Below, one piece after another: positions 832-49,400 of a DNA stretch of 53,643 bases. Numbering within the stretch: the stretch's first letter is position 1; the number at the start of each line of letters is the position of its first letter. The position numbers were made by a program, and so were the translations under genes. The DNA comes from a virus: positions 1 to 53,643 of IMG/VR virus record IMGVR_UViG_3300042890_000620. One strand, written 5' to 3'. The notes beneath the pieces were generated by a model that ran no database searches, was not told the DNA's origin, and saw only the letters and a program-made list of their open reading frames with translations.

Positions 832-1296
832 TTATAAGATAATTACATTGCCAATATTTACTTGTTCTGCTACATAGTCCCATAAAGGCATTAATGCTCG
901 TTTTAAATCTTCGTAATTACCTGAGTCTAACTCTGCCCTAAATTCACTCCACATAAAATAGGCAAGATTTACTACCTTATCATTATTGTGATTTTCTAAA
1001 GGTATTTCAAACCCGCTTAATACAAACTTATCCTCGGGAAATGCCCATTGGTAAATTTCAGGTATTACTACGGCATAAGGACTTAATGGAGGTGGTGTGT
1101 AATCTATTTCAAATGCACTTGCATCTAAATCTACAACTTCATAAGTTAAGGTTTCAAATATCTCAGGAAACTCTAATAATGCGTTTTCACTTGTCGCAAA
1201 TTTACCGATGTGTTCTCCTGATTTTATAGGTGTAGCAAAAAAAGTATTAACCCCTTTTTGAAATCCGTTGTATTGATTTGTGTTTATTATTATCAT
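832..1296 (-). CDS. Fibre-partner protein (putative fibre chaperone/tip partner), copy 1
   Basis: About 154 residues. I chose the ATG at 1296 because its MIIINT start aligns with the paralogues at 40951 and 2928; an in-frame ATG at 1308 overlaps the preceding fibre stop and is less likely. The C-terminal ~90 residues are almost the same in all three copies: a proline-rich TPPPLSPYAVVIPEIYQWAF segment, an HNNDKVVNLAYFMW segment and an ELDSGNY..LKR..MPLWDYV segment. The N-terminal ~60 residues vary. Each copy lies immediately after a fibre gene with stop/start overlap or a few bases spacing, a position like that of tail-fibre assembly (Tfa-type) chaperones. No known family is recognised. Confidence 0.65.
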   Translation of the reverse strand: MIIINTNQYNGFQKGVNTFFATPIKSGEHIGKFATSENALLEFPEIFETLTYEVVDLDASAFEIDYTPPPLSPYAVVIPEIYQWAFPEDKFVLSGFEIPLENHNNDKVVNLAYFMWSEFRAELDSGNYEDLKRALMPLWDYVAEQVNIGNVIIL

Positions 1297-1300
1297 ATTT

Positions 1301-2461
1301 TTAAACATTACGAGATAATGCGGTTTGAAAGGTTTGTACGGCAGTATAATGGTCAGCCTCTTGTGTCATATTAAATAGTTTCATAGTTGCACAATATGCG
1401 TAGTTTCGTGCAACTCTGCCTGTCAATCCTGCTGAGTTGTCAAAATAAACTCCTCCCAATGCTATCGCTGCGGTTTGTCTGAAAGCACTTAAAGAAATTG
1501 CAGAAGAAACTCCGCCTGTTATGAGCGACCCATTTCTTGATATTCCTCCATTTGCCCCATTTTTAACAATAGTAAATAAACCTAAAGTACTTCCTGTGTA
1601 ACCACCATTGTTATAGTATATATTACTTGTGCCTCCTACTGTTGCAATATGTGAATTGGAACTATCTCTTAAACTTAAAGCATTGTATTGAGCATATCCT
1701 CCATTTGTAGACCCCATATCAAATGATACGGCATTACCTGCGCCACTTGCCCCATCTGTTCTTGAGTAGCAACTCATACCAAATTGGTCGTTACTTGTTT
1801 GATACGAAAATGGATTAATAGGTATTATCATTGCATTACTTGACCCATTGGTTGTTATACCATTTGCATTATGTGTTGGACTCCCTTCAAAATATGCTAA
1901 ATTGCTATATCTATTTCTAAATGGATATTTCAAATTTACTGCGTGGTCATTTGCAGTCCCATTAACTAAAGGATGTATTGTATGAAATTTATCCCATAAT
2001 CCTGCTGCATTTAAGTCATCAACTAAATCTATAATTGCATTTTGTATTGTAGAACTTGGTGCAGTTAATTGGTTTAAAAATATATCTGCAAAGTCAAAAG
2101 GGGTTAAAGTTCTTAAATCCCATGTTGCATTTGCACTTACTTGTTTTGTTGGAAATGCGTTCCCAAATCTATCAACTAAATCTAAATCATAAGAACCACC
2201 ACCACTTGGCACTTCAATAGTTAAAGTATTACCAACTAATCCTACTGAGGTAGGTGTAACGGGCGCACCTAAACTATCTTCTAAGTTTACATCAATAGTC
2301 TTTACACTTACAACATCTCCGCTATCAACACTATTTACATTTATTTGACTATCGGGTAAAGTAAGTAATCCGTTAGCTGCAACTGTATTTGTATAAGAAA
2401 CATCGCTATTTTCTACTGTTGCATCTGGGCATGGGTTTATCTTTATTCTAAAATCGGTCAT
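1301..2461 (-). CDS. Fibre/tip protein with VENSD adapter and LamG-like distal domain, copy 1
   Basis: 386 residues, Ser/Thr/Asn/Gly-rich as in virion fibres. Residues 1-90 hold an adapter (TVENSDVSY... LPDSQINVN... VSVKTIDV... GNTLTIEVPSGGGSYDLDLVDR) also found in the 466-residue fibre at 45043. This is followed by GNAFPTKQVSANATWDLRTLTPFDFADIFL, shared with the 369-residue protein at 40948. The C-terminal ~230 residues contain FEGSPTHNANGI and repeated short beta-strand-like segments and resemble a beta-sandwich glycan-binding fold; this is inference. It is the last fibre gene of locus A and is followed by its partner gene. It has no counterpart in locus B beyond the 369-residue homologue. 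Confidence 0.7.
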   Translation of the reverse strand: MTDFRIKINPCPDATVENSDVSYTNTVAANGLLTLPDSQINVNSVDSGDVVSVKTIDVNLEDSLGAPVTPTSVGLVGNTLTIEVPSGGGSYDLDLVDRFGNAFPTKQVSANATWDLRTLTPFDFADIFLNQLTAPSSTIQNAIIDLVDDLNAAGLWDKFHTIHPLVNGTANDHAVNLKYPFRNRYSNLAYFEGSPTHNANGITTNGSSNAMIIPINPFSYQTSNDQFGMSCYSRTDGASGAGNAVSFDMGSTNGGYAQYNALSLRDSSNSHIATVGGTSNIYYNNGGYTGSTLGLFTIVKNGANGGISRNGSLITGGVSSAISLSAFRQTAAIALGGVYFDNSAGLTGRVARNYAYCATMKLFNMTQEADHYTAVQTFQTALSRNV

Positions 2462-2928
2462 ACTAATACTAAATTATTGTTTGTTACTTGTTCTGCTACA
2501 TAGTCCCACAATGACATCAAACTTCTTTTCAATGCCTCATAGTTTCCACTATCTAACTCTGCCCTAAATTCACTCCACATAAAATAAGCAAGATTTACTA
2601 CCTTATCATTATTGTGAGTGTCTAATGGGATTTCAAAACCGCTTAAAACGAACTTATTTTCAGGGAATGCCCATTGATAAATTTCAGGAATAACTACGGC
2701 ATAAGGACTTAATGGTGGTGGTGTAAAATAATTTAAATCCTCAATGTTTAAACTTTCTAAAGTAACATCATCAAATACACTTTCTAAATCTGTATTTGTG
2801 CTGACTTTTTCCCAATTATTTTTAAAGTCAAAGTACCCTAATTGTCTGCCAACATCTAAGTTGTTTTGTTTAAAGTAATAGTCAACATATACTTTAAAAT
2901 CTTGTTTATTGAAATTACCTATTATCAT
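2458..2928 (-). CDS. Fibre-partner protein, copy 2
   Basis: 156 residues. The start overlaps the stop of the 358-residue fibre gene (ATGA), and its own stop overlaps the next fibre start, so translation is probably coupled. The C-terminal ~90 residues match copies 1 and 3 almost residue for residue. The N-terminal ~65 residues (NFNKQDFKVYVDYYFKQNN and following) are unrelated to the MIIINT-x-x-YNG start of the other two. A constant C-terminus with a variable N-terminus fits a fibre-specific partner whose variable part matches its cognate fibre; this is inference. Confidence 0.65.
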   Translation of the reverse strand: MIIGNFNKQDFKVYVDYYFKQNNLDVGRQLGYFDFKNNWEKVSTNTDLESVFDDVTLESLNIEDLNYFTPPPLSPYAVVIPEIYQWAFPENKFVLSGFEIPLDTHNNDKVVNLAYFMWSEFRAELDSGNYEALKRSLMSLWDYVAEQVTNNNLVLV

Positions 2929-4001
2929 GGTGCGGTTATTAAATTTTTTGCATCGTGTACATAAATTGCTGATATACCAAAAGTTTTGTCAATCGCAGTG
3001 TAATTGCGAGATGAAAATACAACGTGCCACATTTGAGCAGTATTTGCAGGATTAGTAGTTGCTGTGTATACGTTGCCTGAGAATATAAATAATTGTGCAG
3101 ACAAATCTATTAATTGTGCAAACCCAACACTCGCCTCCATTCTTGTTGTTGGTAGTATGTCATTTAATCCTACACAATACCAATCTGCAAATGTTATTGA
3201 ATTTACAGTTACAGAAAATGTCAAAGCATCATCTATTGCGGCATTCCAATTAGCTTTATTAATTGTGCTTCTTGTAAATGCAACACCTTGAAGTTTATCA
3301 ATAACAACACTTGCACCCCCTGCTATTTTAGCACCAAAAGCATCTACAAATCTATTTGTGCTACTTACTCCATTTACTATTAAAGCACTTGATAGTGTAT
3401 CTGCCCAATTAGTAATTGTATAATCTAATTCAGCCACTACTTTAGGCATTGCAGGAGGTGTATAATCATACCAACCATTTTGAACTCTCCACCCTTCATC
3501 TCCTGTTCTGTATGATGTACGCTGTATAGGGATTGGAAACTGAAATTGTACACCGCTTGGACTTGACCCCGCAGGGACAACAATATCAATCGTTCTACCC
3601 GATACACTAAATGATGTTGGCGCTACATTTGTAGTCACATTAATAGTTCCTACACTCGGTATAAACCCACTTGCAACCCCGTTGTTTTGGATTGATTGGT
3701 CGGGTAGTATCAAAGTTCCTCCACTTACAACTGTTGTAGCATAAGAGGCATCGCTATTTTCAACATCTGCAACCGGGCAATATTGGAATACATCTACTAA
3801 GTGGTCTTTTACGCTTGGTATAACATCCGTATCTATAACAACATCAAATTGGTCTAATATCTCTATGGTCACATCTGGTAAAACCAAACTATCCCCAGAC
3901 GAAACATCCACACTATAACTTGCATCGCTATTCTCTACGGAAGCATCTGCACAAGTAGGATTTTCTACAACTATTGTTAATTTATTATTTGGTAAACTCA
4001 T
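2925..4001 (-). CDS. Fibre/tip protein with VENSD adapters and exchanged C-terminal domain, copy 2
   Basis: 358 residues. The N-terminus (MSLPNNKLTI) and residues to about 160 are homologous to the 369-residue protein at 40948, with two VENSDASY adapters instead of one. After the IDIVVPAG segment the protein switches to a different domain: YRTGDEGWRVQNGWYDYTPP and an alpha/beta-looking C-terminus ending near AKNLITAP. That part has no counterpart in the other two fibre proteins. The start overlaps the end of the repeat protein 3985-4767 by 17 bp, as in locus B. It is probably the receptor-binding tip of locus A together with the partner at 2458. Confidence 0.7.
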   Translation of the reverse strand: MSLPNNKLTIVVENPTCADASVENSDASYSVDVSSGDSLVLPDVTIEILDQFDVVIDTDVIPSVKDHLVDVFQYCPVADVENSDASYATTVVSGGTLILPDQSIQNNGVASGFIPSVGTINVTTNVAPTSFSVSGRTIDIVVPAGSSPSGVQFQFPIPIQRTSYRTGDEGWRVQNGWYDYTPPAMPKVVAELDYTITNWADTLSSALIVNGVSSTNRFVDAFGAKIAGGASVVIDKLQGVAFTRSTINKANWNAAIDDALTFSVTVNSITFADWYCVGLNDILPTTRMEASVGFAQLIDLSAQLFIFSGNVYTATTNPANTAQMWHVVFSSRNYTAIDKTFGISAIYVHDAKNLITAP

Positions 4002-4767
4002 CCCAATTACTATTTTTATATTTATATAAAATTACATTCTTCCAAACACCACTTTTATAAACTCTTAATCGATAAAGATTAAAACTTGGACTTACATAAT
4101 GGTAAACTGCTAAGAAGTTCGTTTTCAAAGATACATTTTTACCTATTAGGTTGTATGCACCTTTGTTGGCAGTTAAAGTATAAAATACTGGTAGGGTTGT
4201 TAAAATTAAATTTGCATCCTTACCACTTAATGTATAAGTCCCTTTACTTGCACTTAATGTTTTACTTATTCTAAAATCAACATCTTTCCCCGAAAGTGTA
4301 AAGTTTCCCTTACTCGCAGATATTGAATAACTAATCGCACCTGTTGAAAATACTAAGTTAGCATCTTTCCCCGAAAGTGTAAAATCCCCTTTATTTGCAG
4401 ATAATGTTCTACCTACTTTAAAGTCTGCGTTTTTCCCTGATAATGTATAAACGCCTTTCTCACTTGATAAAGTTCTGCCTACTTTAAATTCAGCAGCCTT
4501 GCCCGAAAGTGTAAAATTTCCTTTTTCACTTGCAATACTTTTACCTACTTTAAAGTTAGCATCTTTACCACTTAAACTATAAGTACCTTTACTTGCAGTT
4601 ATTGAGTAACTAACTGAACCTGCCGAAAATGTTAATGAAGCATCCTTGCCTGTTAAGGTATAATCTCCCTTACTTAAAGATAAATTATAAGAAGTTGAGC
4701 CTGAACCTACTATTGGTAGTAGTTCTAATTCAATCTGCGCCCCATCAAATAATCTTCTTGTTGCCAT
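3985..4767 (-). CDS. Repeat-containing fibre shaft protein (KGxY/FxLSGK repeats, 8 units)
   Basis: 260 residues. Residues ~16-215 are eight repeats of 21-28 residues with the consensus KG-x-[YF]-x-L-[ST]-GK-x-A, followed by a C-terminal part (YHYVSPSFNLYRLRVYKSGVW) shared with locus B. Such KGxYxLTG repeats are common in phage virion and tail proteins and probably form a beta-rich shaft. Compared with the copy at 42041 it has one additional 27-residue unit (exactly 81 bp). Bases from 4370 rightwards are identical to locus B, whereas bases to the left are diverged. The start lies 2 bp after the stop of the upstream gene. Confidence 0.7.
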   Translation of the reverse strand: MATRRLFDGAQIELELLPIVGSGSTSYNLSLSKGDYTLTGKDASLTFSAGSVSYSITASKGTYSLSGKDANFKVGKSIASEKGNFTLSGKAAEFKVGRTLSSEKGVYTLSGKNADFKVGRTLSANKGDFTLSGKDANLVFSTGAISYSISASKGNFTLSGKDVDFRISKTLSASKGTYTLSGKDANLILTTLPVFYTLTANKGAYNLIGKNVSLKTNFLAVYHYVSPSFNLYRLRVYKSGVWKNVILYKYKNSNWDEFTK

Positions 4768-4768
4768 T

Positions 4769-5578
4769 TTATACTTCTGATAATATTAATGCACCTGTTA
4801 GTGATGTTGATACTGCAGAAAATACACTAATTGCAAGGCAAGCATCAGGGTCTATTTCTGCCAAAGAACCGATAATGCAACCTGTACTAACTGAATCTAA
4901 TGGCATTGCACCTGTTGCATTTTCCAATGAAATCATTGCTAAAGGCTTGAACATACACACCCCAAAATTGCCTGCCGTTCCTGTGGTGGCAGTAACGGTT
5001 ACTGATTCAATACTTTCCACACCTGTATCACCTGCTTGTAATGGTATTGGAATTAACAATCCTACTTCTCTATAAAAACCTGCACCAATTGTTGTGGCAG
5101 TAGATGTTCTACCACTCACACCCGCTGAATTTGTGTAGCTTATTGTTACCGTTGTAACTGTGTTTCCTACTTGTGTATAAACTACTATCCCTGCCATAAC
5201 TCCCTCACCCGATGTATATCTTGTTAATGGTGCGGTTGGTAAGTTGGTTGTTTGAGCTGTTGTTAAAGTAGCATTCAGTCCTCCGCTAACATTTAACAAA
5301 TCAACTAAAAGCATACCGCCTGCGCCAAATGTTGAAGTATTAAATTTACCGCCCAAAAATGTAAGTCGCCCTGTTGATATGTCAGGGATAGGTCCCATTG
5401 ATTGTGCAGAATCCTTATTAAGAGCAACGCTTGTAGTAGGTACGGCAGGTGCAGGATTAAAAGATTGCCAACTTGCGTTCAATCGCAAAGTTCTAGCGAT
5501 TGATGTGGATAGCTGAAAATCTGCAACACGATTTTCTTTTAGCTTTTCTACATATTCATCAAAGTCTGTTAGTGCCAT
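4769..5578 (-). CDS. Virion structural protein, paralogue of the next gene (locus A)
   Basis: 269 residues, Ala/Thr/Gly-rich. Residues ~90-215 (GGLNATLTTAQT, YTNSAGVSGRTSTATTIGAGF, ESVTVTATTGTAGNFGV) align with the upstream 282-residue protein, so the two arose by tandem duplication and probably share a fold. The protein is identical to that encoded at 42744-43553. Composition and context (between small decoration proteins and fibre repeats) suggest a tail- or capsid-associated structural protein. No enzyme motif is visible. It overlaps the previous gene by one base at 5578. Confidence 0.65.
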   Translation of the reverse strand: MALTDFDEYVEKLKENRVADFQLSTSIARTLRLNASWQSFNPAPAVPTTSVALNKDSAQSMGPIPDISTGRLTFLGGKFNTSTFGAGGMLLVDLLNVSGGLNATLTTAQTTNLPTAPLTRYTSGEGVMAGIVVYTQVGNTVTTVTISYTNSAGVSGRTSTATTIGAGFYREVGLLIPIPLQAGDTGVESIESVTVTATTGTAGNFGVCMFKPLAMISLENATGAMPLDSVSTGCIIGSLAEIDPDACLAISVFSAVSTSLTGALILSEV

Positions 5579-6426
5579 TATTTTTCAATTGTTGCTAATG
5601 AACCAAATAATTCAGGTGCAGTTGCAGCACTTGGAATAAACATTAGTGCTAAACAAGCATTAGGGTCAATAACGGGTATGCCGGGCAATCCTGTTGTGTA
5701 ATCTCTCCACCCCATTGTACCACCTGCACCTACAGGAATCCAAGCCAAAGGTTGAGCAATGGTTATACCAAAGTTACCTGCAGTTCCCGTAGTAGCAGTT
5801 AATTGTATTTGCTCTATTGCTTGTATTCCACTATCACCCGCTGCTAAAGGTATTCTCTGCATTCTTGATACTTCACGAAAACCCGTTGCACCTATGTTAA
5901 TAGTTGAAGTTCTTGAACCTGTCCCTGCTTGGTTTGTGTAGGTCATTGTAAGGGTTGTAGATGTTGTTCCTATTATTGTATATATTTCATAGAATGCTAT
6001 GTTACCTGCACCTCCCGTATTCCTTGTTAATGCAGGACTTGGAGTTGACCCTTGTATTGTTTGTGCAGATGTTAAAGTTGCATTTAACCCACCCTCGTGA
6101 AATAACCTATCGTACAATAAATACACGCCTGCAACTAATGGTGTAATACTTGCACCTATTAAGTGCTTATCTCTACCACCACCTGCGGCAGTAAATGGTA
6201 TTGCTCCATTAGTTGATTTAGTAGGTATTTCCCCCACTGTTGGGACTGCACCCTTTGCAGGCATTCCGTCATACTCCCACAAAGAACATCCTCTACCTGA
6301 TATTGGTGCGGTTGCTGCAACCCCTGCGACTCTTGGCACTTTGTGAAAAAAAATATTTTCAGGTGTACCACTATTGCCGCCTGTTTGTCTGTTAATTAAA
6401 TCTGATAAGTCTGTTATTGCTGCCAT
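5578..6426 (-). CDS. Virion structural protein (locus A)
   Basis: 282 residues. The N-terminal ~100 residues (TDLSDLINRQTGG, FFHKVPRVAG, LWEYDGMPAKG) are followed by a GGLNATLTSAQT...YTNQAGTGSRTSTINIGATGFREVSRMQRIPL core shared with the downstream 269-residue protein. It is identical to the product of 43553-44401. Similar proteins occur in the virion-structural regions of many environmental phages, which is the basis for the structural call; the exact location in the particle is unknown. The start overlaps the 68-residue gene upstream. Confidence 0.65.
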   Translation of the reverse strand: MAAITDLSDLINRQTGGNSGTPENIFFHKVPRVAGVAATAPISGRGCSLWEYDGMPAKGAVPTVGEIPTKSTNGAIPFTAAGGGRDKHLIGASITPLVAGVYLLYDRLFHEGGLNATLTSAQTIQGSTPSPALTRNTGGAGNIAFYEIYTIIGTTSTTLTMTYTNQAGTGSRTSTINIGATGFREVSRMQRIPLAAGDSGIQAIEQIQLTATTGTAGNFGITIAQPLAWIPVGAGGTMGWRDYTTGLPGIPVIDPNACLALMFIPSAATAPELFGSLATIEK

Positions 6427-6620
6427 ATTATTTCATTTTGTATTGCGTGTTCTTTTGCCTCTATGATTAGGTTAGCTAAATTGTCAAGATTAACTCCTGA
6501 TTGATATACCAATCCACCTACTTGTGGAAGTATCTCAAAACTTTCGTTGCTAATTTGCAAACCCCAATCTCCCCCATCTGATAAATAAAGGATTGATTGT
6601 GTTTTCTGAATTACTTGCAT
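6414..6620 (-). CDS. Small hypothetical protein of the fibre locus (locus A)
   Basis: 68 residues starting MQVIQKTQSILYLSDGGDWG. It has a beta-hairpin-like N-terminus and a C-terminal helix (NLANLIIEAKEHAIQNEI). It is identical to the product of 44389-44595. It overlaps the next gene by 13 bp and lies 4 bp after the previous one, so it is clearly part of the operon. No family recognised. Confidence 0.6.
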   Translation of the reverse strand: MQVIQKTQSILYLSDGGDWGLQISNESFEILPQVGGLVYQSGVNLDNLANLIIEAKEHAIQNEIIWQQ

Positions 6621-6624
6621 AGTA

Positions 6625-7041
6625 TTATACTATTTCTATTAATTTTTGAGCATCGGTAAAGTCTATTGTAAATGTATCTCCATTTGCCATTGTAACCCCA
6701 CCTACACCATAGTCATACCATCCTATCAATGGGTCAGCAGGTGATGTTGGAGTGTCATTGTAAATAACTACATATCTAAAGCTAGGAATTGCACCACTTG
6801 CAGTTAATGTCAAATCTACTAAAACAAGCGAATATGTACCACTTGTTTGCGTACTTGATGTAGTCGTGATGTTTCTTGTAGATAACCCTGTGTAAGAAAT
6901 TTCAGTGATTGCTGAAAGGGTTGCATTACTTGCGCTTGGTGCAGTATTTGTTAATGCTACTACTAATTGATTTGAACCGAGATTGTGAACTCCGTTTGCT
7001 AAGTCCGCCACAAAGGCGTTGAATTTGTTGAATGTTGCCAT
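6625..7041 (-). CDS. Phage virion structural protein (KFNxFVxDLAxGVHNLGS family), locus A
   Basis: 138 residues. The pattern FNKFNAFVADLANGVHNLGS, LTNTAP, SGTYSLVLVDLTLTASG, FRYVVIYNDTP and LIGWYDYG is that of a widespread small phage structural protein found near capsid or tail genes. Its 3' half at DNA level is identical to locus B. The N-terminal region differs at a handful of positions (Pro-Ser-Ala-Ser-Asn against Pro-Thr-Ala-Ser-Asp). The right boundary of the identical block lies inside this gene, at 6774. Confidence 0.7.
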   Translation of the reverse strand: MATFNKFNAFVADLANGVHNLGSNQLVVALTNTAPSASNATLSAITEISYTGLSTRNITTTSSTQTSGTYSLVLVDLTLTASGAIPSFRYVVIYNDTPTSPADPLIGWYDYGVGGVTMANGDTFTIDFTDAQKLIEIV

Positions 7042-7068: not shown

Positions 7069-8343
7069 TTAAATCGGTTGTAACCATATATCGTTTTCTG
7101 ATGGAGATAATGGTGCGGTTGAACTTATTGTTAATGTGATGCCTGTTCCAATTACTACGTTGGCATTTGAAAGGGCAGTTAAGTTAAGAGTATTCATAGA
7201 ATATGCCAAATAACTATCCGTTAAAATAACACTACCCAATGGGTCTTCTACTTCTACATTAAAATTATCTAAGGTTATATTTTTCGTTTCTTGTGCTAAT
7301 AAATTTACTGAGTCTAAGGTTACATTTGCAGTATCTTTTAAAACTGCTATTGAGTCTGAAATACTTATATTCTCAGTTGCCTCTGCTAAGATATTCTCAC
7401 TCTTTAAAGTGTTATTTGCTGAGTCCTTAATAACTGCTACACTATCATTAATAGTAATATTTTCACTTGCAGTTGCTAAGATGTTTTCGCTTTTTAAAGT
7501 TGTTCCTGCACTATCCTTAATGACCGCAACTGAGTCAGCAACATTATAACTATCCGTTCCTTGTGCTAAGATAGAACGACTACTTATTAAAGTAGATGCG
7601 CTATTGTTTACATTTAAAGTAGAATTGCTTATTGCTTGTGTTAAAGTTCCACCGCTTGGGATTGAACCTGTGTATAAGGTTGTACCTGTTGAATTGGTTA
7701 TTGTATAGGTAGAGTCAGCACAACTTCCACCCGTATTAACTATCCATTCGCCACCGATTAATGAGCCTACTAAAGCACCTAATTGGTCTTTAACTACGAC
7801 ATTAAAATTGGTATCACTTGGCGCATTGCCATAAACAACTGAATTGATTAGTATTCTCGCATCTTTACAAGGGTTGCTTGGACTTGGAATAGCTGAACTT
7901 AAAGGAATTGCACACGAATTGAAGTCGTAAAACTCCTCAATGCCGATGTCAACAAAGTGTCCCGTTACTTCATCGCCCCACTTCTCCCAAAATGGTGTAA
8001 TAGTATTTGAACTTGTAATAGAAAAACGCTCATTTGTGCCTAACTTCATCCAATATGCTAAGGTATCTAAGGCTATTAATTGAGTATCACTCTCTACTTC
8101 TAACTCATTGCCCTCAGATTTAAGCACTCTATCTGCTATAACTACTCTATAATTCCTTGTATAGCTTGTTCCTGATAGACTACCGCCTAAAGGATAGACA
8201 AGCATTAAGGGATAGATTAAGTTTTCGTAGGCTTGTTGTTCAAATTCCTGTGCATAAAGAAAAGAATGGATTTGATAGTGTCCACTTGCTAAGAGTTCAA
8301 ACTCACTTTTGATTTGATTTGCTGTCTTTTGCATTTGATTCAA
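7069..8343 (-). CDS. Connector/neck-like N-terminus fused to 30-residue fibre repeats (locus A)
   Basis: 424 residues. Residues 1-150 look like a head-tail connector or tail-completion domain (MNQMQKTANQIKSEFEL, YPLMLVYPLGGSL, ALDTLAYWMKLG, IEEFYDFNSCAIPL) and directly follow the connector gene 8403-8918. After a linker come about five 30-residue repeats with consensus ADS-x-AVIKDSAGTTLKSE-x-ILA...ENITI, then a ~70-residue C-terminus nearly identical to that of the 466-residue fibre at 45043. So the C-terminal half is shared between loci and the N-terminal half is not. It may be a real fusion or a recombination/assembly junction. An alternative start at residue 4 (8334) exists. Confidence 0.65.
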   Translation of the reverse strand: MNQMQKTANQIKSEFELLASGHYQIHSFLYAQEFEQQAYENLIYPLMLVYPLGGSLSGTSYTRNYRVVIADRVLKSEGNELEVESDTQLIALDTLAYWMKLGTNERFSITSSNTITPFWEKWGDEVTGHFVDIGIEEFYDFNSCAIPLSSAIPSPSNPCKDARILINSVVYGNAPSDTNFNVVVKDQLGALVGSLIGGEWIVNTGGSCADSTYTITNSTGTTLYTGSIPSGGTLTQAISNSTLNVNNSASTLISSRSILAQGTDSYNVADSVAVIKDSAGTTLKSENILATASENITINDSVAVIKDSANNTLKSENILAEATENISISDSIAVLKDTANVTLDSVNLLAQETKNITLDNFNVEVEDPLGSVILTDSYLAYSMNTLNLTALSNANVVIGTGITLTISSTAPLSPSENDIWLQPI

Positions 8344-40085: not shown

Positions 40086-40490
40086 TTAATTATCATTAGT
40101 ATCATTTGAAACCATTTTTTCAGGCGGATTTTCATCATGTTCTATGGATTTTATACTATGATTATTGTCCAACAAATGTAATATAAAATCTAAAACTTTC
40201 CCAAAGTATGACAATTTACCCATAAGTTTATTTTTTCCTAGTACACTACTAATGGTTTCATCGGGGTTTCCAAACTTATGACCGCCTGTTTTAATCATGA
40301 TGTCATTGAATAACTTAGCTAAAAAACTATTTGCGTGTTGGTCGGTTGCTAATGCACATCTAAATAAATATTCATCTAATGAGTGCCACCCACTTTTAAT
40401 AAGGGTTAAAACAACTGAGTACAAAAATGCAATCGGATAAATAACCCCTGCTAAAAATATTGATACTAAAAATAATATTAAACCTATCAT
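40086..40490 (-). CDS. Membrane-anchored phage protein near lysis genes
   Basis: 134 residues. The N-terminal ~30 residues are hydrophobic (GLILFLVSIFLAGVIYPIAFLYSVVL). The soluble part (SLDEYLFRCALATDQHANSFLAKLFNDIMIKTGGHKFGNPDETISSVLGKNKLMGKLSYFGKVLDFIL, then NHSIKSI) is the pattern of a widespread phage protein of unknown function. It starts inside the end of the fibre-partner gene (ATGA). Confidence 0.6.
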   Translation of the reverse strand: MIGLILFLVSIFLAGVIYPIAFLYSVVLTLIKSGWHSLDEYLFRCALATDQHANSFLAKLFNDIMIKTGGHKFGNPDETISSVLGKNKLMGKLSYFGKVLDFILHLLDNNHSIKSIEHDENPPEKMVSNDTNDN

Positions 40491-40951
40491 AAAATAACTA
40501 AATTATTGTTTATTACTTGCAACTCTACATAGTCCCACAAAGGCATTAAGGCTCTCTTGAGAGATACATAGTTTCCACTATCTAACTCCGCCCTAAATTC
40601 AGTCCACATGAAATAAGCAAGATTTACTACCTTATCATTATTGTGAGTGTCTAATGGAATTTCAAAACCCCCTAAAATAAACTTATCTTGAGGAAACGCC
40701 CATTGATATATTTCAGGAATTATAACGGCATAAGGTGTTAGTGTTGGTGGTGTGTAATCTACTTGAAAAACACTTGCATCTAAATCTATAATTTCATAAG
40801 TTAAGTTTTCAAATATCTCAGGAAACTCCTTTAAAGCATTTTCACTTGTTGCAAATTTGCCTATGTGTTGACCTGATAATATTGGTGCAGCGTAAAATGT
40901 ATTTACACCTTTTGCAGTTCCATTGTATTCTGATGTATTAATAATTATCAT
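40487..40951 (-). CDS. Fibre-partner protein, copy 3 (locus B)
   Basis: 154 residues, start overlapping the fibre stop (ATGA). The C-terminal ~90 residues match copies 1 and 2; the N-terminal MIIINTSEYNGTAKGVNTFYAAPI matches copy 1. The N-terminal relatedness to copy 1 follows the relatedness of their fibres (386 and 369 residues share the SYDLDLVDR/LTPFD domain), which supports co-evolving fibre/partner pairs. Confidence 0.65.
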   Translation of the reverse strand: MIIINTSEYNGTAKGVNTFYAAPILSGQHIGKFATSENALKEFPEIFENLTYEIIDLDASVFQVDYTPPTLTPYAVIIPEIYQWAFPQDKFILGGFEIPLDTHNNDKVVNLAYFMWTEFRAELDSGNYVSLKRALMPLWDYVELQVINNNLVIL

Positions 40952-42057
40952 ACTTGTCTACCATTATAATCTGTTTGGAATTGTTGCCAAATAGTATAGT
41001 CGTCTTGCATTTGAGTATCTGTAAGACTTAACCCTATACACGCCCCTGCAATATTTCTACCCGTATCTTGTCCCATTCTTATTACACTTGTATTAAAAAT
41101 ATTAGCTCCATTTGTAAATACTCCAATAGGGCTTCCTGTATTACCATTTCTTATTGCTTTACTTGCACTTGCGCCTGTTATGCCATTTAATGAATAGTAA
41201 CCATCACTATTATTACTATTTGTAACTGTTAATGTAGTTGAACCATCCCCGCCAACTAATTGACCTGCGGATTGCTTTATTCTTAAAAGCATATTAACAG
41301 GCGAAATTGTTTCAGGACCTATATCTGTTGCGCCAAATGATGCAGGAGTATTGTTTGTTCTGCTATATATCCCTAAATTTATATCTTGTATTGGATAGAA
41401 TAACCTATTCAAACATCTTATTCTACTAAATGATGAACCTACATAAGTTATCCCATTTGAGTCATGCGTTGGGCTACCTTCAAAATTTAATTGACCACTA
41501 CTTTCATTTAAAAATGGATAGCGACAATTTATTGAATTATCTACCGCATTTTTACCAGTAAACAAATAAATGTGTGTTCTTTTTTGCCAAATTCCTGCAT
41601 CACTCCAATCTTGTATGGCTTGTATTATTGCATTTTCTTCTCCTGTTGTATAAGTTCCTGTTGCGTTTGTTAAAAACAAATCCGCATAATCAAATGGAGT
41701 AAGTGTTCTTAAATCCCATGTTGCATTTGCAGTAACTTGTTTAGTTGGAAATGCGTTGCCATATCTATCAACTAAATCTAAATCATAAGAACCGCCACCC
41801 GCAGGTACTACTATATCAATAGTTCTGCCTGTTATTGTAAAACTTGTAGGTGCTACATTAGTAGTTACATTAATAGTTCCTACACTTGGAATAAATCCAC
41901 TTGCAACCCCGTTGTTTTGAATTTCTTGATTAGGTAGTATTAAAGTTCCTCCACTCGGTACACTATTAGAATAACTTGCATCACTATTTTCCACTGCACC
42001 ATTGGCACATATTGGATTATCTGTTATTATGGTTAATTTATTATTTGGTAAACTCAT
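40948..42057 (-). CDS. Fibre/tip protein with VENSD adapter, copy 3 (locus B)
   Basis: 369 residues. N-terminus MSLPNNKLTI and adapter (AVENSDASY, GGTLILPNQEIQNN) are shared with the 358-residue protein of locus A. From SYDLDLVDRYGNAFPTKQV to DFADLF it is shared with the 386-residue protein. The distal ~230 residues contain FEGSPTHDSNGI and fibre-like strands. It therefore looks like a mosaic of the two fibres of locus A. Its start overlaps the shaft gene by 17 bp. Confidence 0.7.
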   Translation of the reverse strand: MSLPNNKLTIITDNPICANGAVENSDASYSNSVPSGGTLILPNQEIQNNGVASGFIPSVGTINVTTNVAPTSFTITGRTIDIVVPAGGGSYDLDLVDRYGNAFPTKQVTANATWDLRTLTPFDYADLFLTNATGTYTTGEENAIIQAIQDWSDAGIWQKRTHIYLFTGKNAVDNSINCRYPFLNESSGQLNFEGSPTHDSNGITYVGSSFSRIRCLNRLFYPIQDINLGIYSRTNNTPASFGATDIGPETISPVNMLLRIKQSAGQLVGGDGSTTLTVTNSNNSDGYYSLNGITGASASKAIRNGNTGSPIGVFTNGANIFNTSVIRMGQDTGRNIAGACIGLSLTDTQMQDDYTIWQQFQTDYNGRQV

Positions 42058-42742
42058 TCCAATTACTATTTTTATATTTGTATAATACTACATTTTTCCA
42101 AACACCACTTTTATAAACTCTTAATCGATAAAGATTAAAACTTGGACTTACATAATGGTAAACCATTAAAAAGTTTATTTGCAAAGTTACATTTTTTCCC
42201 GTTAAATTATATACATTTTTATTTGCAGTTAAAGAGTAATTAATTGTGCTACCTGATTTAATTAAATTTGCATCCTTACCACTTAATGTATAAGTCCCTT
42301 TACTTGCACTTAATGTTTTACTTATTCTAAAATCAACATCTTTTCCCGAAAGTGTAAAATCCCCTTTATTTGCAGATAATGTTCTACCTACTTTAAAGTC
42401 TGCGTTTTTCCCTGATAATGTATAAACGCCTTTCTCACTTGATAAAGTTCTGCCTACTTTAAATTCAGCAGCCTTGCCCGAAAGTGTAAAATTTCCTTTT
42501 TCACTTGCAATACTTTTACCTACTTTAAAGTTAGCATCTTTACCACTTAAACTATAAGTACCTTTACTTGCAGTTATTGAGTAACTAACTGAACCTGCCG
42601 AAAATGTTAATGAAGCATCCTTGCCTGTTAAGGTATAATCTCCCTTACTTAAAGATAAATTATAAGAAGTTGAGCCTGAACCTACTATTGGTAGTAGTTC
42701 TAATTCAATCTGCGCCCCATCAAATAATCTTCTTGTTGCCAT
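42041..42742 (-). CDS. Repeat-containing fibre shaft protein (7 units, locus B)
   Basis: 233 residues with seven KG-x-[YF]-x-L-[ST]-GK repeats. The first ~130 residues are identical to the locus A copy; one 27-residue unit (ANLVFST...LSGKD in locus A) is missing, and the C-terminal part is diverged. Identity at DNA level begins at 42345 within this gene. Confidence 0.7.
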   Translation of the reverse strand: MATRRLFDGAQIELELLPIVGSGSTSYNLSLSKGDYTLTGKDASLTFSAGSVSYSITASKGTYSLSGKDANFKVGKSIASEKGNFTLSGKAAEFKVGRTLSSEKGVYTLSGKNADFKVGRTLSANKGDFTLSGKDVDFRISKTLSASKGTYTLSGKDANLIKSGSTINYSLTANKNVYNLTGKNVTLQINFLMVYHYVSPSFNLYRLRVYKSGVWKNVVLYKYKNSNWNEFTK

Positions 42743-42743
42743 T

Positions 42744-43553
42744 TTATACTTCTGATAATATTAATGCACCTGTTAGTGATGTTGATACTGCAGAAAATAC
42801 ACTAATTGCAAGGCAAGCATCAGGGTCTATTTCTGCCAAAGAACCGATAATGCAACCTGTACTAACTGAATCTAATGGCATTGCACCTGTTGCATTTTCC
42901 AATGAAATCATTGCTAAAGGCTTGAACATACACACCCCAAAATTGCCTGCCGTTCCTGTGGTGGCAGTAACGGTTACTGATTCAATACTTTCCACACCTG
43001 TATCACCTGCTTGTAATGGTATTGGAATTAACAATCCTACTTCTCTATAAAAACCTGCACCAATTGTTGTGGCAGTAGATGTTCTACCACTCACACCCGC
43101 TGAATTTGTGTAGCTTATTGTTACCGTTGTAACTGTGTTTCCTACTTGTGTATAAACTACTATCCCTGCCATAACTCCCTCACCCGATGTATATCTTGTT
43201 AATGGTGCGGTTGGTAAGTTGGTTGTTTGAGCTGTTGTTAAAGTAGCATTCAGTCCTCCGCTAACATTTAACAAATCAACTAAAAGCATACCGCCTGCGC
43301 CAAATGTTGAAGTATTAAATTTACCGCCCAAAAATGTAAGTCGCCCTGTTGATATGTCAGGGATAGGTCCCATTGATTGTGCAGAATCCTTATTAAGAGC
43401 AACGCTTGTAGTAGGTACGGCAGGTGCAGGATTAAAAGATTGCCAACTTGCGTTCAATCGCAAAGTTCTAGCGATTGATGTGGATAGCTGAAAATCTGCA
43501 ACACGATTTTCTTTTAGCTTTTCTACATATTCATCAAAGTCTGTTAGTGCCAT
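42744..43553 (-). CDS. Virion structural protein (locus B copy)
   Basis: 269 residues, identical to the product of 4769-5578 and, as read here, identical in DNA. It shares a GGLNATLT...TATTGTAGNFG core with the adjacent 282-residue protein. Role as described for the locus A copy: structural, position in the particle unknown. Confidence 0.65.
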   Translation of the reverse strand: MALTDFDEYVEKLKENRVADFQLSTSIARTLRLNASWQSFNPAPAVPTTSVALNKDSAQSMGPIPDISTGRLTFLGGKFNTSTFGAGGMLLVDLLNVSGGLNATLTTAQTTNLPTAPLTRYTSGEGVMAGIVVYTQVGNTVTTVTISYTNSAGVSGRTSTATTIGAGFYREVGLLIPIPLQAGDTGVESIESVTVTATTGTAGNFGVCMFKPLAMISLENATGAMPLDSVSTGCIIGSLAEIDPDACLAISVFSAVSTSLTGALILSEV

Positions 43554-44401
43554 TATTTTTCAATTGTTGCTAATGAACCAAATAATTCAGGTGCAGTTGC
43601 AGCACTTGGAATAAACATTAGTGCTAAACAAGCATTAGGGTCAATAACGGGTATGCCGGGCAATCCTGTTGTGTAATCTCTCCACCCCATTGTACCACCT
43701 GCACCTACAGGAATCCAAGCCAAAGGTTGAGCAATGGTTATACCAAAGTTACCTGCAGTTCCCGTAGTAGCAGTTAATTGTATTTGCTCTATTGCTTGTA
43801 TTCCACTATCACCCGCTGCTAAAGGTATTCTCTGCATTCTTGATACTTCACGAAAACCCGTTGCACCTATGTTAATAGTTGAAGTTCTTGAACCTGTCCC
43901 TGCTTGGTTTGTGTAGGTCATTGTAAGGGTTGTAGATGTTGTTCCTATTATTGTATATATTTCATAGAATGCTATGTTACCTGCACCTCCCGTATTCCTT
44001 GTTAATGCAGGACTTGGAGTTGACCCTTGTATTGTTTGTGCAGATGTTAAAGTTGCATTTAACCCACCCTCGTGAAATAACCTATCGTACAATAAATACA
44101 CGCCTGCAACTAATGGTGTAATACTTGCACCTATTAAGTGCTTATCTCTACCACCACCTGCGGCAGTAAATGGTATTGCTCCATTAGTTGATTTAGTAGG
44201 TATTTCCCCCACTGTTGGGACTGCACCCTTTGCAGGCATTCCGTCATACTCCCACAAAGAACATCCTCTACCTGATATTGGTGCGGTTGCTGCAACCCCT
44301 GCGACTCTTGGCACTTTGTGAAAAAAAATATTTTCAGGTGTACCACTATTGCCGCCTGTTTGTCTGTTAATTAAATCTGATAAGTCTGTTATTGCTGCCA
44401 T
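43553..44401 (-). CDS. Virion structural protein (locus B copy)
   Basis: 282 residues, identical to the product of 5578-6426. Same one-base overlap with the downstream gene and 13-bp overlap with the 68-residue gene. Two identical structural genes in one phage are unusual because they are substrates for deletion by recombination. Confidence 0.65.
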   Translation of the reverse strand: MAAITDLSDLINRQTGGNSGTPENIFFHKVPRVAGVAATAPISGRGCSLWEYDGMPAKGAVPTVGEIPTKSTNGAIPFTAAGGGRDKHLIGASITPLVAGVYLLYDRLFHEGGLNATLTSAQTIQGSTPSPALTRNTGGAGNIAFYEIYTIIGTTSTTLTMTYTNQAGTGSRTSTINIGATGFREVSRMQRIPLAAGDSGIQAIEQIQLTATTGTAGNFGITIAQPLAWIPVGAGGTMGWRDYTTGLPGIPVIDPNACLALMFIPSAATAPELFGSLATIEK

Positions 44402-44595
44402 ATTATTTCATTTTGTATTGCGTGTTCTTTTGCCTCTATGATTAGGTTAGCTAAATTGTCAAGATTAACTCCTGATTGATATACCAATCCACCTACTTGT
44501 GGAAGTATCTCAAAACTTTCGTTGCTAATTTGCAAACCCCAATCTCCCCCATCTGATAAATAAAGGATTGATTGTGTTTTCTGAATTACTTGCAT
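44389..44595 (-). CDS. Small hypothetical protein (locus B copy)
   Basis: 68 residues, identical to 6414-6620. Hairpin-like N-terminus and C-terminal helix; no family recognised. Confidence 0.6.
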   Translation of the reverse strand: MQVIQKTQSILYLSDGGDWGLQISNESFEILPQVGGLVYQSGVNLDNLANLIIEAKEHAIQNEIIWQQ

Positions 44596-44599
44596 AGTA

Positions 44600-45016
44600 T
44601 TATACTATTTCTATTAATTTTTGAGCATCGGTAAAGTCTATTGTAAATGTATCTCCATTTGCCATTGTAACCCCACCTACACCATAGTCATACCATCCTA
44701 TCAATGGGTCAGCAGGTGATGTTGGAGTGTCATTGTAAATAACTACATACCTAAATGTAGGAATTGCACCACTTGCAGTTAATGTCAAATCTACTAAAAC
44801 AAGCGAATATGTACCACTTGTTTGTGTACTTGAAGTAGTTGTGATGTTTCTTGTAGATAACCCTGTGTAAGAAATTTGAGTAATTGCAGCAAGTGTAGCA
44901 TCACTTGCAGTAGGTGCAGTATTTGTTAATGCTACTACTAATTGATTTGAACCGAGATTGTGAACTCCGTTTGCTAAGTCCGCCACAAAGGCGTTGAATT
45001 TGTTGAATGTTGCCAT
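44600..45016 (-). CDS. Phage virion structural protein, KFNxFVxDLA family (locus B copy)
   Basis: 138 residues, differing from the locus A copy at about six positions in the first two thirds (for example PTASDATLAAITQ against PSASNATLSAITE). DNA identity with locus A ends at 44749 inside this gene. Same conserved LTNTAP and LIGWYDYG segments. Confidence 0.7.
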   Translation of the reverse strand: MATFNKFNAFVADLANGVHNLGSNQLVVALTNTAPTASDATLAAITQISYTGLSTRNITTTSSTQTSGTYSLVLVDLTLTASGAIPTFRYVVIYNDTPTSPADPLIGWYDYGVGGVTMANGDTFTIDFTDAQKLIEIV

Positions 45017-45042: not shown

Positions 45043-46443
45043 TTAAATCGGTTGTAACCATATATCGTTTTCTGATGGAGATAATGGTGCGGTTGCACTT
45101 ATTGTTAATGTGATGCCTGTTCCAATTACTACGTTGGTATTTGAAAGGGCAGTTAAGTTAAGAGTATTCATAGAATATGCCAAATAACTATCCGTTAAAA
45201 TAACACTACCCAATGGGTCTTCTACTTCTACATTAAAATCATCTAAAACAATGTTTTCAGTATCTTCTGCAAATATATTTACAGTGTCAAGTGTTACCAT
45301 AGCAGTATCTTTTAAAACTGCTACACTATCGTTTATTGTAATATTTTCAGATGCTTCTGCTAAAATACCTTCTGATTTTATTGTTGTACCTGCTGAATTT
45401 TTAATTACTGCTGTACTGTCGTTAATAGTAATGTTTTCAGAAGTTGCCGCTAAAATGCCTTCACTTTTTAAAGTCGTTCCTGCACTGTCTTTTATAACTG
45501 CGGTACTGTCTGCAACATTATAGTTTGCTGAACCTTCTGCAAGTACAGTAACTGCACTTATCAATGTAGCATCACTTTTTCTAACATTGACTGTACTATT
45601 GATTATAGTTATATTTTCGGAAGTTGCTGCCGGTATTGCCTCTGTTTTAATTGTTGTTCCTGCGCTATTTTTAATTACTGCTGTACTATCGGCCACAACC
45701 ACATTTAATCCAGTAATCGTTCCAACAGATGCTGGGACAGAATTTATTACAGGAATATCTACTGTATCGGGTGCAGAAATGGTATCGTAAAGATTGCCAT
45801 TTATTTCAATATCAACATCACCGCCACCACCCGAAGGAAGTGTTATTGTCAAAGTATTTCCTACCAAACCTACGCTTGTAGGGACAACAGGGTCAACGCC
45901 ATCTGTCAAATCTACGTCAATAGTTTTTACGCTTACAACATCTCCTTCATCAACTCCATTAACATTTATTTGAGAATCTGGCAATGTTAATGTCCCTCCA
46001 CTTGGAACAGGCGCCATGTAGGACATATCGCTATTCTCTACATCACCATCTGCGGACACACTTTCAGTAATGGTTTTAAAGCTTCCGTTTTGATCTAATA
46101 CTTTAAAACCGCTTTCAGAAGTGAACTCCGTACATTCTCTATTTTTAAGGCCAATTGCTTCTGAGGTAAGATTAAACTCACTTACATTTGTTTTTTTTAA
46201 AACACTTATGAAGTTTTCAGTTGGGTCAATGTTGGTGACGTTTATGTAGGTTATATCAAAATAACCACTTGAAAAATCATTTATTAAAACGACATTTTGG
46301 CCAGAACTTGTAAGCAAACCTTCTGTTGATTTCTCCAATCGTGTGCCTTGTCTAACAATAACATATTGGATATTATATTGCACGTTACCTGCTGATTGCA
46401 AGTTAATAACAAGGGATTCTATGGGAGTGTTTAATCTTATCAT
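45043..46443 (-). CDS. Virion fibre with anchor N-terminus, VENSD adapter and 30-residue repeats (locus B)
   Basis: 466 residues. Residues 1-130 (MIRLNTPIESLVINLQSAGNVQYNIQYVIV, VTNIDPTENFISVLKKTN) look like a virion-anchoring fibre N-terminus. An adapter follows (DVENSDMSY, LPDSQINVNGVDEGDVVSVKTIDV), as in the 386-residue fibre. Then come about six 30-residue repeats (ADSTAVIKDSAGTTLKSE-type) and a C-terminus nearly identical to the 424-residue protein at 7069. The repeats probably form a beta-structured shaft. It starts 43 bp after the giant polyvalent gene. Confidence 0.65.
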   Translation of the reverse strand: MIRLNTPIESLVINLQSAGNVQYNIQYVIVRQGTRLEKSTEGLLTSSGQNVVLINDFSSGYFDITYINVTNIDPTENFISVLKKTNVSEFNLTSEAIGLKNRECTEFTSESGFKVLDQNGSFKTITESVSADGDVENSDMSYMAPVPSGGTLTLPDSQINVNGVDEGDVVSVKTIDVDLTDGVDPVVPTSVGLVGNTLTITLPSGGGGDVDIEINGNLYDTISAPDTVDIPVINSVPASVGTITGLNVVVADSTAVIKNSAGTTIKTEAIPAATSENITIINSTVNVRKSDATLISAVTVLAEGSANYNVADSTAVIKDSAGTTLKSEGILAATSENITINDSTAVIKNSAGTTIKSEGILAEASENITINDSVAVLKDTAMVTLDTVNIFAEDTENIVLDDFNVEVEDPLGSVILTDSYLAYSMNTLNLTALSNTNVVIGTGITLTISATAPLSPSENDIWLQPI

Positions 46444-46485: not shown

Positions 46486-49400
46486 TTATTTTCGTTCTTT
46501 AGGTTTTTTGTAATCTTCTCTTTGTTCTTTTTGGAGTTTTACTTCTTTTTGGTTTTTGTCAATCTCTCTAATTTTTTTATTGAGGTCTTTTATTATTTCA
46601 GGCTCACCCTTAGATTTTCTAATTGCATTGCCTTCTTTAGCATACTTAATAGCATTATCACGCTTGATAACTCCAATTTCTTTCTTTTTAGAATCATTGT
46701 AAATTTCCCAAAAATCTTTTGTATATCTAAATTCTTGAGCTTTCATATCTACAACAAACTTACTATAAAATGGTATTCTATTTGGGTTTAATTCTGTGCC
46801 TTTTAGTGCTACTTGTCCAAGTTCAATACCTTTAAACATTGTTGTTATTACACCACCTGTTGCATCGTTTACAAGATACTCTAATGTTTCAGGGGAAACG
46901 TCTAAACCTGCATTCCAATACACGTTTTTAGCAACATCTTTGTAGATTTGATTTGTTCTTTCAAAGTATCTTAAATAGTCAGATTCTTCAACACCATAAC
47001 TGTCAGGCAATATTGGTGCTTTATTATAATCTCTATTTAAGAAGTTTACCTCTACAAATGGTCTTAATGAAGTTGGTGTAAGTGCTGAGTATTTGTTTGA
47101 CATATTCCCTGTGATTGGGTCAAATGAACTTACCAATGTAGAAACCATATTGCCTGTATGTTCACCTACATCACCATCCATTGACAATGCCCCTAACTCA
47201 TGCCCTGCATTAAAGAATACCTTTAACATACCATAAGGTTTTGGTATTTTTACTGAACGATAATCCCCTATTGGGATTATGTAACTATTACTTTGTTCTT
47301 CTGCTGATATAAGATTGTTGTAAAAATCTTTTTCGTCATCATCTCCAGAAACCATATCTATAATTGCTTGTTGCATGAATGGATAGGCCATACCAAGTCC
47401 AAATAATGCTGCTGCCCTTTTTTGTCCTCTTGGAGTTTTTAATGCTTTCATTCCTGCATACAACGATTGGAACCCTGCATTACTAAACAAATAGAATGTA
47501 TTAATTAATGGCGTACCTGTTCCTTTTTTATTAAAGTTGACAGATAAGTTTTTAGAAATACTTGCTGCTTTATCTACCGGAACGCCAAAATCTCTCAATG
47601 CTTTAAACACAGACAATCTTGTTGCCATCTCCACAGATTCGTTTATTGCGCCTAATGTCCCAATTGCCGATTTAAAGACTTGTTTGGTATAATACGCCCC
47701 ACCTTTATCGCCATACTTGGCAATCATTCCATTAATCTTCTTTTGCTCACTTTCTATTTCACCATAATTCATCCAAGAGATTTTCCCACCACTTGATAGG
47801 TATTCATCTACCACTTTACCCATTTCTGAGTTTGGATCTAAATTACCCATGGTTGCTTTGAATGATGCTTTGGTTGCTTTCTTGTAGTTCTTAATTACTG
47901 CGGTTGTCAATCCTTCAATGTTTACTCCTGCTGCGTTAAATATAACGTCTTGAACATCCCTAAGTACGTTTGTAAAGGCAAACTCAGGGTTGTATTGTGT
48001 TAAAATTGCTCTTTTGAATGAGTTATACATATTAAATATTCTCAATATTGACCTCATGGCCGAGCTTTTATCTGCGTTATTCTTTAACCAAGCATCTCTT
48101 AAACCTTGGTGATTGAATTTAATGTACTTAACCTTACCACCAATTTTAACTTTTACTGAATTGTCTTTTATTTCAGAAGGCAATGCAAATTCACCACCCG
48201 GTAATCCTGCAACATCTACAATATCCCAAACGCCTTTGTTTGGATTTTCTTTTACTAAATTGTATAAAGATTGCGCCACTTTATTATCCTCAGATAGTTT
48301 TACTGATGCTTGGAAGTCTAACAATGATTGTGTTACAGGACTAATCCTTTTGGTGTAGTCATATTTGTTAGTCCCTTTTATTCTTTGGATTGGCTCAAAG
48401 CTTGCACCTCTTTTGCCGCTTGGTGTAACCTTGTCAGGCAATGCTTCTTGTTTAACTTTTAAAGGGATATAAAACTCAAAATCAACTCCTGTTACTTCAT
48501 CTTTGCCTGTTCTAAGTGCTTCTGCTTCTTCAGGAGATAAGTCGCCTGCTTCTTCTCTTAAATTAATATACTTTGTAATAACCGTTTCTCTAAATTCTTT
48601 GGAATATGCTTCCAACTTATCTTTCTTTCCTGCTTTCTCAAACTCCTTCATAAAGTTGTCTGCTTCGGCATCAGTCATACCACTACCTGCATCTGGGATT
48701 TCTTTTGCTTGTGCTGCTGCTAACTCCTTTTGCTTTTTGGTGATAAGTGCAGTATTAGATGTTACTCCCGGCAATCCAAGTTGATTGGCGTTTTGAAGGG
48801 CAGTCAATTCATCTTGTAATACTTGAACCTCAGCATCTTTCTCCATTTGGCGTTTTGTGGCTACCCTTTTGTTATACTCCTTAGCATGTTGAACCATCAT
48901 AAAAAAGTCTAAGTCTGTAATGTTTAATTTATCCTTAGCCATTCTTTGAACCATACCTTCAGTACCTTTTTTATTAGTAGCCATTTCGCCATAAGCCTTT
49001 CCAAATATTTTTTGATAAACTCTATTTACGGTGTCTGCCATTCTTCCAATTGCAATATCTTTTTGGATGTATGGGTTCATGTCATCAGGTAGTGTGCCTT
49101 TAGTTTTCTCAATTTCTTTTTGCATTTTTTCTTGCCAAATAAAATCGTCTGCCACCGTAGTTATGGCTTTTTCTACTCGTGATAACTCTTTATCAGCCTC
49201 AAAAACCTTTTGTCCTAATTCAAGTTCTTCTGCAATTCTCTTTTTAACATTTTCTAAATCACTTGATAGTTCTACATACAAATCTGTTAGGGCATCTGTT
49301 GCATTATTTATGTCTTGAACATCATTTTTTGCAGCGTGTATTGACATTGTTTTATAAACATCAATGGTATCTTTTAAGGCATCTAATATTACTTGGGCAT

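Follow-up and report, generated by a model that had tools for sequence, protein, structure and literature searches.

The virus record IMGVR_UViG_3300042890_000620, a whole IMG/VR entry of 53,643 base pairs (bp) that was analysed over its full length (the window), carries three fibre genes, each directly followed by the gene of a small protein, termed here the partner. All genes discussed are located on the minus strand. In the order of transcription, fibre 2 (358 amino acids (aa); 2925-4001) is followed by partner 2 (156 aa; 2458-2928), fibre 1 (386 aa; 1301-2461) and partner 1 (158 aa; 832-1308), with each open reading frame (ORF) overlapping the next, while fibre 3 (369 aa; 40948-42057) and partner 3 (154 aa; 40487-40951) form a separate pair. 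The fibre/partner junctions of all three pairs overlap, by 8, 4 and 4 nucleotides (nt) for pairs 1, 2 and 3, respectively. A preliminary description of this DNA had placed three such pairs, with fibres of 386, 358 and 369 residues and partners of ~155 residues, between positions 832 and 4001; the protein sizes and close junctions are as described and pairs 1 and 2 lie in that interval, but pair 3 lies outside it, at 40487-42057.

Each partner comprises two modules. The constant C-terminal domain (C-domain) of 87 residues is encoded at 832-1095, 2458-2721 and 40487-40750 in partners 1, 2 and 3, respectively, and presents 79-85% identity among the three proteins. The N-terminal domains (N-domains), of ~67-71 residues, belong to type A in partners 1 (1096-1308) and 3 (40751-40951), which are 78% identical, and to type B in partner 2 (2722-2928), which displays 25% and 22% identity with partners 1 and 3, respectively. 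The fibres divide in the same manner. Fibres 1 and 3 share a type-A lectin-like tip with the SYDLDLVDR/LTPFD signature (roughly 1301-2200 and 40948-41796), while fibre 2 carries another tip family (type B; roughly 2925-3560, ending LITAP), whose relatives give a weak Pfam Lcl_C match that falls short of the curated cut-off. The near-constant C-terminus, the matching N-termini of partners 1 and 3 and the parallel division of the fibres, all noticed in the preliminary description, were reproduced in these comparisons. Non-synonymous divergence (dN) was well below synonymous divergence (dS) both for the C-domains and for N-domains of the same type, and the partner genes are therefore real.

Loci of relatives were obtained from IMG/VR scans, in overlapping sets of 18, 27 and 32 loci. 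Their N-domains were assigned to types A, B, C and D, the last merging groups first labelled D and E; L094 has a divergent type-B N-domain. Three classes of tip are distinguished by sequence: lectin-like tips accompany types A and D, Lcl_C-like tips accompany type B (the Pfam match being weak and below cut-off, E = 2.6e-5), and arabinofuranosidase-B-like tips accompany type C (with a Pfam match above cut-off, E down to 4.9e-10). Mantel tests over 23 pairs revealed that N-domain distance follows fibre-tip distance (r = 0.71, P = 2e-4), with values of r = 0.01 for the N-domain against the C-domain and r = -0.02 against the downstream holin-like protein; the C-domain correlates with the holin-like protein (r = 0.83), its value against the tip being r = 0.10. 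Across 45 fibre/partner junctions, stand-alone partners included, each N-cluster leads to one tip cluster, and the lectin-like tip cluster pairs with several N-clusters. In the tip tree of the lectin-like superfamily, those tips that have a type-A partner group in a single clade (support 99/98); two changes, the minimum, account for the partner-type labels, against a mean of 11.6 after shuffling. With three pairs alone, the covariance could have been chance; its persistence over 23 pairs and 45 junctions confirms it, and it is independent of phage lineage. The C-domain stays with the phage lineage and plays no part in the matching. The earlier proposal of dedicated, fibre-specific partners thus holds for the N-domain, which covaries with the tip, and not for the constant half.

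The boundary between the two modules is also visible in the DNA. In blastn comparisons of loci with different N-types, homology is lost inside the shaft and regained, at 86-92% identity, at partner codon ~65-70, which corresponds to the first residues of the C-domain; this pattern held among all four types compared. When two loci share the N-type, homology begins near the fibre end or the partner start. Recent exchanges are recognised from dS values for the tip, N-domain and C-domain of 0.06, 0.00 and 0.77, respectively, between the fibre 2/partner 2 pair and L010, of 0.03, 0.02 and 0.51 between the fibre 1/partner 1 pair and L004, and of 0.00, 0.03 and 1.01 between L020 and L104. Since tip and N-domain are near-identical at synonymous sites while the C-domain differs, the tip plus N-domain constitute a mobile cassette, for which the C-domain is the acceptor residing in the phage. 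Conserved sequence in the shaft and in the C-domain provides natural homology arms, which recombination would use. An invertible switch was rejected, as no inverted repeats of at least 40 nt were found in the record.

N-domains also occur without the C-domain. In other phage lineages, with unrelated surroundings, a 67-75-aa ORF related to the type-D N-domain is found directly after a lectin-like tip, at a distance of -1 to +11 nt, and no trace of the C-domain was found at these loci (L110, L117-L119, L122, L170, L172, L173, L175, L179 and L090). In the tip tree, L012, L020 and L100, whose partners contain the C-domain, are placed among tips whose partners lack it; fusions or losses of the C-domain therefore occurred more than once. 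The same layout, though with different small proteins, is observed in isolates: in Flavobacterium elemoviruses the "YapH" tip is followed by a 66-aa ORF, and in Microcystis phage Mwe-JY13 an 89-aa ORF follows the tip. A homologue remote from any fibre gene was looked for and none was found: each of the 28 full partners sampled, 25 from loci elsewhere and the three in the record, overlaps a fibre ORF or is separated from it by at most 5 nt, and the same holds, with gaps of up to about 11 nt, for all but one of the sampled stand-alone N-domains. The exception is L116, in which a 253-aa ORF (L116:5930-6691), homing-endonuclease-like by eye, is inserted exactly between the fibre gene and the stand-alone 74-aa partner. 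At two further loci (L121:6241-6600 and L125:6717-7073), a fibre of the PHROG 5939 tail-protein class is followed by an unrelated 118-119-aa partner without database match, a candidate for another fibre-specific partner type.

Database searches identified no match for the partner in Pfam or PHROGs, and 17 members scanned against both at E ≤ 10 gave no match to the tail-fibre-assembly or DUF4376 families. No sequence relatives were found in the PDB, profile searches returning chance-level matches only. No relative of the full partner was found in isolate phages, and two scans of 84,980 bacterial and archaeal species genomes with short conserved peptides, which gave 39 and 30 pattern matches, revealed no relative of the full partner or C-domain. 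The four N-domain types were not detectably homologous to one another in profile comparisons; A/B and A/C gave apparent matches at about 16% probability, located at or close to the N/C linker that the types share, and treating the four types as one family was rejected for want of significant profile similarity.

An AlphaFold2 model of partner 1 built with 23 close relatives had a predicted local distance difference test score (pLDDT) of 48 and was discarded, with no fold search made. Adding distant stand-alone N-domains and C-domain fragments led to a confident model of the full-length relative L100 (pLDDT 84, predicted template modelling score (pTM) 0.51), which is of type D, while the types of the record are A and B. 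The L100 monomer displays an alpha/beta N-domain and a C-domain consisting of strands followed by two helices. Foldseek comparison of this model with the PDB gave a best E of 0.69, with no chaperone among the 50 matches listed. Against BFVD, it retrieved only uncharacterised phage proteins of 66-77 residues, which cover the N-domain only (best match E 9.9e-5, TMt 0.79), and no homologue of the C-domain. These matches agree with the modelled N-domain being an independent small-protein fold. The partner thus appears to represent an unannotated protein family of Bacteroidota phages, new to Pfam, PHROGs, PDB sequence and PDB fold, as had been suspected in the preliminary description.

Taken together, we suggest that the partner is probably a dedicated, fibre-specific folding or assembly partner built of two modules. 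This proposal starts from what the comparisons demonstrate directly, namely that the partner is modular, that tip and N-domain are co-inherited, that exchanges have a sharp boundary at the N/C junction and that one N-domain type exists on its own. The N-terminal ~67-71 residues would recognise, and bind, the fold class of the tip encoded just upstream, whether lectin-like, Lcl_C-like or arabinofuranosidase-B-like, and tip and cognate N-domain are inherited together on a single contiguous stretch of DNA. The C-terminal ~87 residues form a constant module, which remains with the phage lineage and may oligomerise the partner. Overlapping stop and start codons would couple translation of fibre and partner, and the partner may act during folding or trimerisation and then be released, by analogy with V22 gp27 and Pam3 gp25. 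With homology arms provided upstream by the conserved shaft, and downstream by the conserved C-domain and holin-like gene, a single recombination would replace the tip together with the matching half of its partner. Gene position, translational overlap, a type-specific N-domain and a constant C-domain support this proposal and fit the Pam3 gp25/Mu Tfa plan, judged by analogy. Several observations weigh against it. Searches by sequence and by fold revealed no connection with a known tail-fibre chaperone, the C-domain of the L100 model is mixed strand/helix and not the four-helix domain of Pam3 gp25, and the model of partner 1 itself failed (pLDDT 48). In addition, a free partner of 67-75 residues is small for a Tfa-type chaperone, and in L026 compared with L028/L009 the tip is closer than the N-domain, indicating that fine-scale linkage is not absolute. 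More tentatively, a widespread new class of ~70-residue tip partners may exist, made up of several types, unrelated in sequence and each serving a single tip fold, which are solitary in some phages and in others have repeatedly been plugged into a lineage-resident constant domain, such that the tip and half a chaperone are swapped as a cassette.

It is unlikely that the partner is, instead, a structural tip or cap subunit that is kept on the fibre and is active in host recognition, like the S16 gp38 adhesin. A fixed position directly after the fibre and an N-domain specific to the tip type would both be expected of such a subunit, and some fibre accessory proteins stay bound and aid host recognition (PMC7289586). 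The mean within-type distance, however, is 0.22 for the N-domain and 0.66 for the tip; this better conservation of the fibre-facing variable half favours fold recognition over a share in receptor binding, and where the N-domain stands alone there is no space for a half that binds a receptor. In gp38-type adhesins the fibre-attaching part is constant and the distal part variable; this contrasts with the partner, in which the tip-matched part differs from type to type but is conserved within a type and the other part is near-constant. Adjacency and recombination at conserved flanks might alone keep tip and N-domain together, with no functional matching, which we regard as quite improbable. Tip and N-domain are indeed contiguous and flanked by conserved DNA, so that one crossover per side moves both, and the correlation between the C-domain and the holin-like protein (r = 0.83) reveals how strongly neighbourhood alone links sequences. 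Nevertheless, the three recent exchanges and the comparisons between all four types place the breakpoints at the N/C domain boundary and not at the gene boundary, type-D N-domains keep to lectin-like tips in phages that lack the C-domain and have unrelated surroundings, and not one N-cluster pairs with two tip clusters across the 45 junctions. A lineage-tied constant half and a tip-tied variable half would also fit an adaptor between the tip and the shaft or virion, in which the former half would bind the virion and the latter the tip. This is very improbable, as in many relatives (L004, L008, L012, L015 and L020) the tip is covalently fused to the neck/anchor protein and the partner is still present, and as N-domains stand alone without the constant half.

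The organisation of the record suggests which phages the three pairs come from. The stretches 4370-6774 and 42345-44749 are the same sequence over 2405 bp with zero mismatches, while their flanks diverge. The region from ~8.3 to 42 kb resembles the siphovirus-like phage G002, with most proteins 88-99% identical and some genes more diverged; the natural order in G002 is 424-aa anchor, shared genes, fibre, partner and holin-like gene. The right end of the record (2256-aa protein and 466-aa anchor) and its left end (fibres 1 and 2, their partners and an NlpC-like gene) match the podovirus-like 66-kb record G004, in which the large protein and 466-aa anchor precede, after intervening genes, fibre, partner and NlpC-like gene. 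The layout is A-R-D-R-B, R being the shared repeat, and the repeat flanks belong to two different phages. The simplest account is probably an assembly cross-over at R between a siphovirus-like and a podovirus-like phage, or else the record is a real co-integrate. Under a cross-over, pair 3 would probably derive from the siphovirus-like phage and pairs 1 and 2 from the podovirus-like phage. Because the record probably crosses over two phages, a tandem array of three pairs in one phage is doubted. The closest isolate terminases are those of Flavobacterium phages (52%), and the host therefore probably lies within the Flavobacteriia, among Flavobacterium-like bacteria.

Partner 1 is followed by a 176-aa protein (268-798), NlpC/P60-like by eye, which is the same neighbour that follows the partner in G004 (79%), and partner 3 by a holin-like membrane protein of 134 aa (40086-40490), which is what usually lies downstream of the partner in siphovirus-like relatives. 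The 424-aa anchor (7069-8343) comprises a neck-protein-like N-terminus and immunoglobulin (Ig)-like repeats, and its N-terminus is fused to tips in related phages (e.g. L004 and L012). A second repeat/anchor protein of 466 aa (45043-46443) has an N-terminus unlike that of the 424-aa protein and is 84% identical to its G004 counterpart. Degenerate "SKGxYTLSGKDAN" repeat proteins at 3985-4767 and 42041-42742 differ in repeat number (260 vs 233 aa). Both modules also contain, at 4769-6426 and 42744-44401, paralogous 269- and 282-aa proteins, 44% identical to one another, and a 138-aa protein; all three are nearly identical between the modules, occur across phage types and are perhaps surface decoration or adhesion proteins. 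A very large ORF at 46486-53256 (2256 aa, or 2385 aa if extended to the end of the record) has relatives in PHROG 14770/616 and in a partial ORF of G004 (2118 aa), and may encode a virion protein that is ejected.

Fibre tips decide which bacteria can be infected, and tips that depend on a matching helper are not simply exchangeable. The phages described here appear to solve tip exchange by keeping the matching half of the helper beside the tip in the DNA while the constant half is left in place. Their loci offer naturally occurring cases, with precise boundaries, in which tip and helper are exchanged together, some of them between siphovirus-like and podovirus-like phages, and give a name and a functional hypothesis both to an unannotated Bacteroidota phage family and to the 66-77-residue proteins that follow lectin-like tips.

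Known fibre helpers share several of these features. Proteins of the Tfa kind (Mu gpU/Tfa, T4 gp38 and R-pyocin chaperones; Pfam Caudo_TAP) are, like the partner, encoded directly after the fibre, similar in size, fibre-specific and exchanged together with the fibre C-terminus, as in the invertible G segment of Mu with its S/U and S'/U' pairs. Mu Tfa and Pam3 gp25 both comprise a non-conserved fibre-binding N-domain and a conserved C-domain (PMC9608196). In contrast with the Tfa kind, the partner has no Pfam match and hhalign probabilities were 0.1-0.2% (0.1% for the Mu U/U' profile, a weak bridge since almost all relatives fetched were >90% identical), no Mu Tfa structure (PDB 5YVQ fold) was among the PDB fold matches listed, and no invertase or inverted repeat accompanies the pairs of the record. 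Pam3 gp25, a myocyanophage chaperone seen by cryo-electron microscopy (cryo-EM) with the fibre gp24, shares the two-domain plan of a variable N-domain of ~55-70 residues, a short linker and a conserved C-domain of ~90-100 residues, although its C-domain is all helical and trimerises, while the modelled C-domain of the partner has strands and two helices, and the PDB search gave no fold match. The DUF4376 chaperones Alteromonas V22 gp27 and A5 gp9 are likewise downstream and fibre-specific, V22 gp27 being required for a functional fibre and absent from the final complex (PMC7289586). Their fibre-plus-chaperone module is common to morphologically different phages (PMC7289586, PMC10579305), which resembles the sharing between siphovirus-like and podovirus-like phages here, but the partner has no DUF4376 match and is cut at a domain boundary, whereas the V22/A5 module is shared whole. 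QMP88453.1 (66 aa) of Flavobacterium phage vB_FspP_elemoC_3-9B follows a lectin-like "YapH" tip with a 1-nt gap, in the manner of the partner, but is without the constant C-domain, and the sequence relationship is not significant (hhalign probability 6%); the 66-aa viral protein A0A7D7JP05, of unverified identity, matches the modelled N-domain fold (probability 0.98, TMt 0.71). By sequence and by the L100 fold search, the partner is a member of neither the Tfa nor the DUF4376 family. We read it, by analogy, as working like Tfa, V22 gp27 or Pam3 gp25, with homology to none of them detected. A fibre with its cognate helper is a known kind of system, to which the exchange of a cassette split at the N/C junction of the helper is added here.

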